Assembly: GCF_001886955.1 (NCBI RefSeq) | Contig: NZ_CP016804.1 | Coordinates: forward strand, 1,612,001-1,676,000 | Source: Halodesulfurarchaeum formicicum | GTDB taxonomy: Archaea; Halobacteriota; Halobacteria; Halobacteriales; Halobacteriaceae | Length of the DNA: 64,000 nucleotides | Direction of reading: 5' to 3' | Part shown: one piece after another, positions 21,401 through 48,763 of the stretch | Position numbering within the stretch: the stretch's first letter is position 1 | How the letters are laid out: each line of letters begins with the position of its first letter | The notes under the pieces: generated by a model | What the model was told of the DNA's origin: nothing | Database searches by the model: none | The model's input: the letters and a program-made list of their open reading frames with translations, nothing else | Translations under genes and position numbers: made by a program

Positions 21401-21652
21401 TTACCGATTCTCATCGATCCATTCACAAAAGGTATCGAAATCATTGGCACCCGCCTGATCCGCTATCTCGCGGAGAGTTCCGACCCGTAATTCGTCGTGA
21501 AGAGGGACAGTGACGTGCCTCCGATCGTTCTCGTTCGTGGGATGCTCATAGTAGAGTTGGGCGTGGTCTCCTGTCGTTCGACGCCATTCGAAATCGCCAA
21601 CATTCACTAACACCTTCACGACCGCTTGCCCCGAGAACGTCCGTCGACTCAT
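21401..21652 (-). CDS. hicA: HicA-type toxin (mRNA interferase)
   Basis: An 83-residue HicA/YcfA family protein. The dsRBD-like fold pattern is AVVKVLVNVGDFEWRRTTGDHAQLYYEH with the catalytic-position His in TGDHAQ, and VTVPLHDELRVGTLREIADQAG following. HicA toxins cleave mRNA. It follows hicB by one base, in antitoxin-first order, less common than toxin-first. ATG 21652. Confidence 0.85.
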   Translation of the reverse strand: MSRRTFSGQAVVKVLVNVGDFEWRRTTGDHAQLYYEHPTNENDRRHVTVPLHDELRVGTLREIADQAGANDFDTFCEWIDENR

Positions 21653-21653
21653 T

Positions 21654-21923
21654 CTACTTCAAGATGTCCGGCGGTTCCTGGTCCCCGGTCGTGTTCGCCG
21701 CTGGATCGATCCCCATCGCTTCCAATTCGGTTTCTGTTGGAGAATGTCCAGTTTCGTCTTCGAAAAGTTGCACGGCATCATCGAGATTCGCGAGGGCTAC
21801 TTCCCGGGTTTCTCCCTGAGTAGAGACTCCAGTATCGACATCTTTCGCAATCCACCACCCCTCTTCACGCCACAGGCGGATCTCGCCATTGTGGGAGTCG
21901 GCATTGCGACTCGAACTAGCCAT
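21654..21923 (-). CDS. hicB: HicB-type antitoxin
   Basis: An 89-residue HicB-like protein with GWWIAKDVDTGVSTQGETREVALANLDDAVQLF, the typical degenerate RNase H-like antitoxin core. No clear DNA-binding domain follows, so autoregulation is not evident. ATG 21923 is preferred because an AT-rich TATA-like motif (21950-21956, minus) is about 30 nt upstream. With hicA it makes a type II toxin-antitoxin pair located beside tRNA-Arg. Confidence 0.83.
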   Translation of the reverse strand: MASSSRNADSHNGEIRLWREEGWWIAKDVDTGVSTQGETREVALANLDDAVQLFEDETGHSPTETELEAMGIDPAANTTGDQEPPDILK

Positions 21924-21949
21924 CTCACATGTAATTACGGGAAGGACTG

Positions 21950-21958
21950 CATAAACAT
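21950..21958 (-). promoter_or_regulatory. TATA-like box of hicBA
   Basis: On the minus strand TGTTTATGC lies about 30 nt before the hicB ATG at 21923, in an AT-rich patch. This fits a leaderless promoter for hicBA. Confidence 0.5.
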
Positions 21959-22142
21959 TTGGCCCTGCAATTTTTCCCAATCGAGATATTTTCAAATCGA
22001 CGTCTCATTTGCCAGATTCCGCAATTCTTCCCAGATGGAAGCGATTCAGTTGTGACCGATCCGCCGGTCTCCAGATACTCGATGAGCAGCATATGGCGGC
22101 TGAGCTGCTCGGGGGAGAGTTCAATTAGTTCTACGGATCGCA

Positions 22143-22202: not shown

Positions 22203-22471
22203 TCCGACGGAACCTGAGCGGACCCGAGGGGACTCCCGCGAGCGGCGAGGGCGACCAGCGGGAGCCTTCGAAATGGACGAACGGTGAGCGGAGCGACGTG
22301 AGTCAGCGAGCGGGAGGTTGTCAGGAGGTGAGCGGAGCGAACGAACTGACAGAATTTGAACCACGCCCGAGAACCTGCGTTTCGCAGAACCTCGGTCTCA
22401 TTCAAATCCCTTGCTCCGTTCACTCTGCCGAGCGCGGTGCCTTCCGGCACACGCGCTGAGTTCCGTAGAAG

Positions 22472-22566
22472 CGGACCCGAGGGGATTTGAACCACGGTCG
22501 GAGCAAAGCTCCTCCCTGATTCAAATCCCCGTCCGCTTCGCTCCTCACCGTCGTTCGTCGCAGAAG
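22472..22566 (-). repeat. tRNA-tail palindromic unit at tRNA-Arg (95 nt)
   Basis: Directly 3' of tRNA-Arg (minus strand). It reads: CTTCTGCGACGAACG, a hairpin flank GGTGAGGAGCGAAGCGG, an inverted T-arm GGATTTGAA, a hairpin GGAGC-TTT-GCTCC, then a copy of the tRNA-Arg T-arm and acceptor tail. A 47-nt part (22482-22528) is identical to 47457-47503 in the tRNA-Lys array. Confidence 0.88.
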
Positions 22567-22641
22567 CGGACCCGAGGGGATTTGAACCCCTGACATCTTG
22601 GTCCGGAACCAAGTACTCTATCCAAACTGAGCTACGGGCCC
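22567..22641 (-). tRNA. tRNA-Arg (anticodon CCG)
   Basis: A 75-nt cloverleaf: acceptor GGGCCCG pairs with CGGGTCC (one G-U), discriminator G; D-arm GCTC...GAGT; anticodon stem CTTGG/CCAAG with loop TTCCGGA giving anticodon CCG (CGG codon, Arg); T-arm GGGGTTCAAATCCCC. No intron and no encoded CCA. A TATA-like GTTAAACG lies about 30 nt upstream on the minus strand (22667-22676). Repeat units follow at the 3' side. Confidence 0.95.
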
Positions 22642-47129: not shown

Positions 47130-47203
47130 GGGCCGGTAGCTCAGGTAGGCAGAGCGTCTGGCTTTTAACCAGACGGACGGGGGTTCAAATCCCTCCCGGC
47201 CCG
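47130..47203 (+). tRNA. tRNA-Lys (anticodon TTT)
   Basis: A 74-nt cloverleaf: acceptor GGGCCGG pairs with CCGGCCC, discriminator G; D-arm GCTC...GAGC; anticodon stem TCTGG/CCAGA with loop CTTTTAA giving TTT; T-arm GGGGGTTCAAATCCCTC. No intron, no encoded CCA. TATA-like tttaacc about 30 nt upstream (47099-47105). A tandem array of tail-copy repeats follows. Confidence 0.95.
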
Positions 47204-47513
47204 TGAAATCTCCGAGCGAAGCGAGGAGTACGAACGGCGAGGGATTTGAACTAGAGAAACGCGAGCGGAGCGAGCGTTTCACGTTGTTCAAATCCCTCCC
47301 GGCCCGTGTTTTCCTGCGAACGAAGTGAGCAGAAAACCGGCTGCGGTTTTGAACCCAGGAAACCGAGCGAGCGAATGCGAGCGAGGTTTGCGTTGGTTCA
47401 AATCCCTCCCGGCCCGCTTCTGCGACGAACGTAGGTGAGGAGCGAAGCGGCCAGGAGGATTTGAATCAGGGAGGAGCTTTGCTCCGACCGTGGTTCAAAT
47501 CCCTCCCGGCCCG
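47204..47513 (+). repeat. Tandem tRNA-tail palindromic array (3 units)
   Basis: Three units, 47204-47306 (103 nt), 47307-47416 (110) and 47417-47513 (97). Each has a first hairpin, an inverted T-arm (GGGATTTGAA, TTTTGAAC, GGATTTGAA), a second hairpin, and finally an exact 21-nt copy of the tRNA-Lys tail (T-arm through acceptor) at 47286-47306, 47396-47416 and 47493-47513. The tRNA itself holds the fourth copy (47183-47203). Second hairpins differ in sequence (GAAACGC/GCGTTTC; AAACC/GGTTT; GGAGC/GCTCC) but keep pairing. Confidence 0.92.
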
Positions 47514-47587
47514 CTTCTGCGACGAACGAACGTGGGGAGCAAGGCGCTCTCGAACGACAGAACGGTCAGTAGGAATCGCCACACGAG
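47514..47587. other. Gap between array and Fic gene
   Basis: The continuation of the array: the string cttctgcgacgaacg (also at unit starts) recurs at 47514-47528, then unrelated sequence up to the Fic stop codon. No gene seen. Confidence 0.6.
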
Positions 47588-48763
47588 TCAGTAGGTCTGG
47601 GGTGGTTGCTCCAGAATCTCGAAAATCTCGCTGGCTCGATATTCCTTGTTGCGTCCCTTCCCGGTCACTTCCTCAAGGACCCCTTCCTCGACGAGGTCGT
47701 TGATTACTCGCGACGCCGTCGGTTGCTTGACATCGAAGAGCCGTTGAACAGTCTTGCTCGTGACGTAGGGCTGTTCGAAGAGCTTCAATGCGAGTTGGTT
47801 TTTCGTGTACGACTTGCCCCCGTATTCGGCGTCGTACTGACCCTTGAGGTCGGCAAGCGAGCGTGTTCGGTCGACGGACTCGTGGGCCTGCCGAGCAATG
47901 CCCTCGATAACGAACGAAACCCACGCTTCCCAATCGCCACCGTATCGAACGGCCTCCAACCGATCGACGTACGTCGGCTTGTTTCGATTGAAGTATTCAC
48001 TGAGGTAGAGATTCGGGCGTTCGAGATAGCCAGCGTCGTACAACTGGAGCGTGATGAGAAGCCGACCGAGACGACCGTTCCCGTCGCCGTACGGATGGAT
48101 GGTCTCGAATTGATAATGGAAGAGCGCGATGTCGACGAGGGAGTGGTAGCTCCCGCCAGTTCTGTAGTAAGTGAAAAGCGCATCCATCAAGCCGTCGACC
48201 TTGTCTGGAACCGGTGGCAGGAAGTCACCGATATGGTTCGGTTTCGTCTTGTACGCACCGAGAGTATCGGTATCGACGCGGTCGTCTGGAACGCCAGTGA
48301 GAAGCGTCTCGTGGAGTTGGTGTACCCATTCGACGGTCAGGGCTTCGCCTCGGTCGAGTGCCTCGATACCATCCTCGATAGCGGCTTCGTAGTTGAGAAC
48401 TTCCTGTGTGTCCTTCGTTTGGTCCGGCGCGGATTCGCCGCGAATCTTGTCTCCGCCGGCGTCAAACGAGCGTGTTTCGAGACTGTAAAGCGCGTTGTAG
48501 TCGACATCAGCGCCTTCGATTGCAGCTGATTCCATGGCTTCCTTCCGGAGAAGTGACGTGTAGAGTACTGGCGGGAAATCGAGTTCGAGACTCACGCCAC
48601 TGAGTTTCCCGAGCCAGAACGTCGCGTCCGAAAGCCTCTCGCAGAAGTCGTCCCCGAGATCGAGATCCGGAGATGGCGGCAGCGGATCGGGCTCGTAGTA
48701 CGACCGCTGGCCGTACGAGATGAGTTCGCCAGGAGCGTTAGAATCGAGTTCGGACTGTTGCAT
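47588..48763 (-). CDS. Fic-domain protein (class II, with C-terminal winged helix)
   Basis: A 391-residue Fic enzyme. The Fic motif HPYGDGNGRLGR lies at residues 223-234; a regulatory inhibitory helix with S-x-x-x-E-G (SAAIEG, residues 79-84) marks a class II AMPylator with an autoinhibitory Glu. The C-terminal 90 residues look like a winged helix-turn-helix (TSKTVQRLFDVKQPTASRVINDL), so it could bind DNA. Codon and base use are more AT-rich than neighbours, and the gene is beside tRNA-Lys, which suggests horizontal transfer. Target unknown. Confidence 0.87.
   Translation of the reverse strand: MQQSELDSNAPGELISYGQRSYYEPDPLPPSPDLDLGDDFCERLSDATFWLGKLSGVSLELDFPPVLYTSLLRKEAMESAAIEGADVDYNALYSLETRSFDAGGDKIRGESAPDQTKDTQEVLNYEAAIEDGIEALDRGEALTVEWVHQLHETLLTGVPDDRVDTDTLGAYKTKPNHIGDFLPPVPDKVDGLMDALFTYYRTGGSYHSLVDIALFHYQFETIHPYGDGNGRLGRLLITLQLYDAGYLERPNLYLSEYFNRNKPTYVDRLEAVRYGGDWEAWVSFVIEGIARQAHESVDRTRSLADLKGQYDAEYGGKSYTKNQLALKLFEQPYVTSKTVQRLFDVKQPTASRVINDLVEEGVLEEVTGKGRNKEYRASEIFEILEQPPQTY

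Follow-up and report, generated by a model that had tools for sequence, protein, structure and literature searches.

Tandem hairpin units with host-specific copies of the tRNA 3' end behind tRNA genes of Halodesulfurarchaeum formicicum and other Halobacteria

Introduction

Two short units that lie behind different tRNA genes of Halodesulfurarchaeum formicicum HSR6 share a long segment letter for letter and end each in a copy of its own tRNA; the question raised by this locus is how a common body comes to carry ends that match different hosts. The chromosome of strain HSR6 comprises 2,085,946 bp (PMC5437934), the genome being a single contig, and the stretch analyzed here, referred to as the window, covers 64,000 nt of it (NZ_CP016804.1, positions 1,612,001 to 1,676,000; coordinates are those of the window unless stated otherwise). 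A sequence-only reading of the window had proposed a tRNA-targeting element with a conserved body and a swapped target piece.

The units in the window

The Arg unit (22472-22566, minus strand) is located directly behind tRNA-Arg(CCG) (22567..22641, minus strand); tRNA-Lys(TTT) (47130..47203, plus strand) is followed by three units, the third of which is the partner of the Arg unit. The reverse complement of 22482-22528 matches 47457-47503 in 47 of 47 nt, exactly as had been read from the sequence, and represents the longest substring common to the two loci; a match of this length far exceeds what chance would produce. It had also been claimed that each unit ends in the tail of its own host tRNA, and exact 21-nt copies were found in both cases. 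The Arg tail GTTCAAATCCCCTCGGGTCCG occupies 22567-22587 in the 3' end of the tRNA gene and 22472-22492 in the unit, whereas the Lys tail GTTCAAATCCCTCCCGGCCCG occupies 47183-47203 in the gene, with exact copies starting at 47286, 47396 and 47493. The string CTTCTGCGACGAACG is present at 22552 (minus strand), 47417 and 47514 (both plus strand), and GGTGAGGAGCGAAGCGG at 22533 (minus strand) and 47434 (plus strand).

Read on the minus strand, Arg unit 1 is composed of spacer hairpin A (22528..22566; CTTCTGCGACGAACG..GGTGAGGAGCGAAGCGG), which continues into sequence antisense to the acceptor strand, the antisense T-arm GATTTGAA (22520..22527), core hairpin B TCAGGGAGGAGCTTTGCTCCGACCGTG (22493..22519) and the exact tail copy (22472..22492). 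Next to it lies a decayed Arg unit 2 (22346..22471, minus strand) with a spacer of the tRNA-Ser(tga) type, an antisense T-arm at 22401-22408, a hairpin B that starts with TGAGACCGAGGTTCTGCG and a degraded tail, TTCAAATTCTGTCAG. Regarding the three units behind tRNA-Lys(TTT), all on the plus strand, unit 1 (47204..47306) has its antisense T-arm at 47243-47250 and its tail at 47286-47306, unit 2 (47307..47416) has a variant antisense arm, GGTTTTGAACC, and its tail at 47396-47416, and unit 3 (47417..47513), the partner of Arg unit 1, consists of A (47417-47457), antisense T-arm (47458-47465), B (47466-47492) and tail (47493-47513). The beginning only of a further, decayed spacer A, CTTCTGCGACGAACGAACGTGGGGAGCAAGGCGC, occupies 47514..47550 on the plus strand.

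Just past the tRNA-Arg array a HicA-type toxin gene (PF07927) is located beside the gene of a DUF7387 protein in a toxin-antitoxin-like placement (21401-21995, minus strand). A Fic-domain protein (PF02661, PF13784) is encoded just past the tRNA-Lys array (47588-48763, minus strand).

Unit structure and agreement with the host tRNA

On the tRNA-sense strand the order within a unit is spacer hairpin A, antisense arm, core hairpin B and sense tail. Spacer A measures roughly 25-100 nt; the antisense arm, made up of GGATTYGAA and a portion of the acceptor complement, corresponds to the 3' end of the host tRNA in reverse complement; the tail extends over 21 nt from G53 to the discriminator base N73 of the host tRNA and ends without CCA. 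The units are about 90-160 nt long, are hairpin throughout, contain no gene and leave no coding space between tail copies. They are repeated head to tail behind the tRNA gene, with up to five in tandem in HSR6. The claim that only the end differs between the Arg and Lys units was right about the tails and incomplete as a whole: the antisense arm that separates A from B differs too and tracks the host acceptor.

A collection of 214 distinct units was obtained from fetched haloarchaeal loci, a T-arm-like antisense motif being required for inclusion. Base 57 forms a Watson-Crick pair with its antisense partner in 200 of the 214 units (A-T 132, G-C 68; the others are A.C 9 and G.T 5); because of this requirement, the strict conservation of the remaining T-arm positions in part reflects how the units were selected, but the covariation at base 57 is unaffected by it. 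The segment just 5' of the antisense T-arm fits the complement of the acceptor of its own host better than those of other tRNAs (p = 6e-15, a value that is indicative only, because related sequences are not independent), whereas a control segment showed no excess. Among the matches listed, the 11-nt acceptor part of the tail had on average 10.0 matches to its own tRNA versus 4.7 to other tRNAs, and the 21-nt tail copy was identical in 69 and matched at 18 nt or more in 105 of 120 cases. Both the sense and the antisense arms are host-specific.

Distribution in HSR6 and in the class

Units were found by a strict parser behind 19 of the 42 tRNA genes of HSR6, the genome holding some 30-50 units; in salt-loving archaea as a whole, about half of the tRNA genes are followed by such units. 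At every copy checked the core was anchored to a tRNA gene and joined to the tail of that host, in agreement with the view that like cores are attached to different tRNA tails; cores in places without a tRNA tail were not encountered. All core matches checked in HSR6 lay within tRNA arrays, including two apparent exceptions. The first, a match without a tRNA call, belongs to a tRNA-Trp gene with an intron. (This gene, at 2425-2597 of locus L274 on the minus strand, has an intron of about 100 nt; it was missed by the genome-wide tRNA search and found by cmscan.) The second belongs to the array of tRNA-Arg(tcg), which is displaced by 55 kb through a genomic island. This island of about 55 kb (chromosome positions 1166485-1221367, loci L014 and L275) apparently entered the chromosome at the 3' end of that tRNA gene and has a PF00589 integrase at its far end (1220286-1220840, minus strand).

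The island bears on the rival that corresponds to the sequence-only reading, in which the units would be the debris of attachment sites, left by an integrase that targets tRNA genes or by elements that were serially integrated and excised. Such debris would be expected at tRNA 3' ends, which are the usual archaeal attB (PMC8371274), and an island with an integrase at tRNA-Arg(tcg) speaks for it as well; that island, however, occupies the true tRNA end and merely pushes the array away. Nor is an antisense arm with conserved hairpin required of att sites, and viral contigs contain almost no cores: the core search of 2.9 million of these (IMG/VR) gave one match, on a contig that holds a whole tRNA-Glu together with a unit, and nothing was found in plasmid and phage records with the Arg unit as query. 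Attachment-site debris is considered very unlikely.

In public genomes the core TCAGGGA..GACCG was found in at least 120 stretches, which were haloarchaeal with the exception of one unspecified euryarchaeal MAG. Among the matches listed, 120 of 127 were located 33-327 nt behind a tRNA gene on the same strand, the tRNAs being of many identities, and the other seven were mostly at the edge of the fetched stretch. A broader related pattern was present in 61 of 65 Halobacteriales genomes and in none of 231 genomes of the phylum that belong to other groups; controls with the reversed pattern gave zero in nearly all genomes. Within the phylum, the family is present across Halobacteria and in none of the other sampled classes. 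Gene conversion between the Arg and Lys loci only, which the earlier reading had named as an alternative, is excluded, since the family spans the class.

Folding and strand preference

When the cores were folded with RNA parameters, the tRNA-sense strand was the better one in 195 of 214 units and the complement in 14 (p = 6e-35, likewise indicative only, given the relatedness of the sequences); with DNA parameters the figures were 184 and 16. One B family provided 95 distinct inner cores, of which 88 had a Watson-Crick pair at the first and 88 at the second inner position, and the exchanges observed (G-C/A-T and C-G/T-A/G-C) are compensatory; the positions that follow were mainly G.A/A.G or Watson-Crick. 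The better fold of the sense strand and the compensatory pairs show, taken together, that one strand, that of tRNA polarity, is structurally constrained, and the structure is maintained on the tRNA-sense strand.

Regarding the nature of that strand, the indications diverge. The apical loops are mostly of 3 nt, typically C-GNA-G (the majority) or C-YYY-G. Mini-hairpins of the type d(GCGNAGC) and GNA triloops are exceptionally stable DNA folds (PMC4686876), and the triloops of the units would lean towards single-stranded DNA as the working form. The core hairpins contain 219 G.T versus 91 A.C pairs, an excess that is partly due to one fixed pair and leans towards RNA, whereas the T-arm helix shows no preference for G.T at position 57 (5 G.T versus 9 A.C). 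The present evidence does not separate RNA from single-stranded DNA, and the latter is slightly preferred.

One rival explanation is a structured trailer RNA that serves the host. Transcripts reading through the tRNA gene would fold into these hairpins, and the antisense arm and the tail copy would govern folding, 3' processing or turnover of the tRNA, or yield a small RNA. Stability specific to the tRNA-sense strand, the surplus of G.T over A.C in the cores, the compensatory changes in B and the conservation across the class are in line with this, as is the finding that only 54 of 214 spacers begin with a run of four or more T, a potential transcription stop. About half of the tRNA genes, however, have no units, and the set that does varies between congeners; loops of 3 rather than 4 nt prevail, the tRNA-arm helix lacks the G.T preference, and the units had no Rfam match at the gathering threshold (in the window only tRNA and RNase P did). 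Such a trailer RNA is regarded as rather doubtful.

Turnover between congeners

HSR6 was compared with a congener at 42 orthologous tRNA loci; units were present in both genomes at 14 loci, in one only at 10 and in neither at 18. Where spacer A was retained (identity of at least 0.8), B was retained in nine units and replaced in eight. The Lys unit of the founding pair is among the replaced ones, its congener having a spacer of 0.90 identity and an unrelated tip (0.33). For several of the replaced tips, a match of 95-100% was found among the tips located under other tRNAs. At tRNA-Glu(ctc) one genome has exactly one more unit than the other, placed between N73 and the downstream sequence common to both. 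Gain or loss at the scale of a unit is thus observed, as is replacement of B under a retained A; the movement of units is slow, since many of them are orthologous between the congeners. Of the tRNA-targeting element with conserved body and swapped target, the anchoring to tRNA genes and the swapped target piece hold; targeting by an integrase is not supported, and neither is a single intact mobile element, because between congeners the spacer A and the tip B are shuffled independently of each other.

Change of this kind might also be a passive by-product without function or dedicated system, in which replication template switching at quasi-palindromes together with short-repeat recombination has made, and continues to correct, tandem, alternately inverted copies of tRNA ends. 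The alternation of tail, antisense and tail, the imperfect arms and a two-unit block duplicated in tandem at tRNA-Ser(tga) fit this explanation, and repeat-mediated deletions have been reported for haloarchaea (PMC3119063). It leaves unexplained the strand-specific stability and the recurring G.A and GNA motifs, the B families common to dozens of genera, and the confinement to tRNA genes and to one class, and is held to be unlikely.

Proposed mechanism and candidate enzymes

The reading preferred here, to which about an even chance is given, is that the units are haloarchaea-specific, non-coding, foldable cassettes anchored to tRNA genes and shuffled by recombination at their tRNA-tail arms. 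The sense strand would act folded and single-stranded, as nascent RNA or, slightly preferred, as single-stranded DNA. Nearly universal T-arm arms flank B on both sides, with the host-specific acceptor arms outside; judging from the patterns of replacement, recombination at the T-arm arms may swap tips B among tRNA loci and leave the acceptor arms unchanged, and recombination between identical tails may delete or duplicate whole units. The whole would then be a minimal array of hairpin cassettes with an attC-like architecture and no genes, and ordinary short-homology recombination may suffice for the shuffling. How a brand-new unit gains its host-specific arms is left unexplained by this mechanism. 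A more far-reaching version, in which class-wide cassettes that fold as single strands trade their tips at the T-arm and have their arms rewritten for each host in an integron-like, enzyme-run system without genes, is advanced only tentatively.

The sequence-only reading had suggested a trans-acting integrase elsewhere in the genome; no recombinase family tracks the arrays, and no mobilizing enzyme correlating with them was found among the families tested. Phage integrases were present in all ten genomes tested, unit-poor and unit-rich alike. The occurrence of the Y1 transposase does not follow that of the arrays: HSR6 has one copy, and the unit-rich genome G257 has none. The integron integrase IntI (TIGR02249) had no match above the cut-off in six genomes, the only signals being weak cross-matches to tyrosine recombinases. 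Retrotransposition or tRNA-primed copying was rejected, reverse transcriptase (PF00078) being found in none of six unit-bearing genomes and the tail copies being without CCA. Amplification by inverted triplication was considered and set aside, as core B does not resemble tRNA sequence from left of the T-arm. In the matches read, the tips all point the same way with respect to the tRNA, which is not in line with an inversion of B by a recombinase.

Comparison with known systems

When tested for membership, the units do not pass as integrons, IS605/REP repeats, integrase att sites or retroelements, although they resemble each in part. With integron attC arrays, for which the published features (PMC2727003) were used, they share the tandem arrangement, an imperfect stem formed by the pairing arms, a variable terminal structure and a structure that matters on one strand. 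In contrast to integron arrays, they are without a gene, no IntI was found above the cut-off, and their arms copy the adjoining tRNA instead of a common R/L box; strand bias and a variable tip are seen, but a clear unpaired central spacer is not distinct, so that a strict likeness to attC was rejected.

Short, non-coding, palindromic repeats are also known as REP, MITE and PATE, the latter being haloarchaeal repeats (PMC3119063), and from the ends of IS200/IS605 elements. Unlike these, the units are strictly anchored to tRNA genes and have host-specific arms; IS200/IS605, REP and PATE use a fixed short target without duplication, whereas the units carry an exact or near-exact 21-nt tail copy that varies with the host. 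Of the two genomes named above, HSR6 contains the Y1 (HUH) transposase and the unit-rich G257 lacks it.

The copy of a tRNA 3' end downstream of the tRNA or at a far boundary recalls attL/attR of integrated elements, which differ in that the units have a spacing of about 90-160 nt, an antisense arm and a structured core, and occur at many tRNAs at once; unlike a tRNA-targeting integrative element, a unit has no integrase within it, there being no coding space between the tails. The antisense arm complementary to the tRNA 3' end resembles a primer-binding site, as in tRNA-derived SINEs and tRNA-primed retroelements, from which the units are separated by the absence of PF00078 from the six genomes and by tails that stop at N73.

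No published description of the hairpin cassettes was found in the open-access literature. If the preferred reading is right, a structured, modular repeat system behind tRNA genes of a whole archaeal class has, as judged from the open-access literature, so far been undescribed. It would then become testable how repeat elements adopt the sequence of a host gene, and whether the 3' flanks of haloarchaeal tRNA genes are recombination hot spots or sources of structured RNA.

Two further observations concern the flanks of tRNA genes. A second hairpin repeat, likewise non-coding, CCCACTTTTTCCGAGGGGCTGC..GCAGCCCCTCGCAAAAACTTGGGGAAAAAGACCGCTAnCGGCTGTTGAA, was seen several times behind tRNA genes for Gly and Leu (L005, L006, L015, L043 and L046; in the congener L103 and L245). 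Longer 3' fragments of tRNA-Leu(caa) (L046, about +170 to +243) and tRNA-Phe (L016, about +300), which reach into the anticodon arm, are located downstream of the intact genes.
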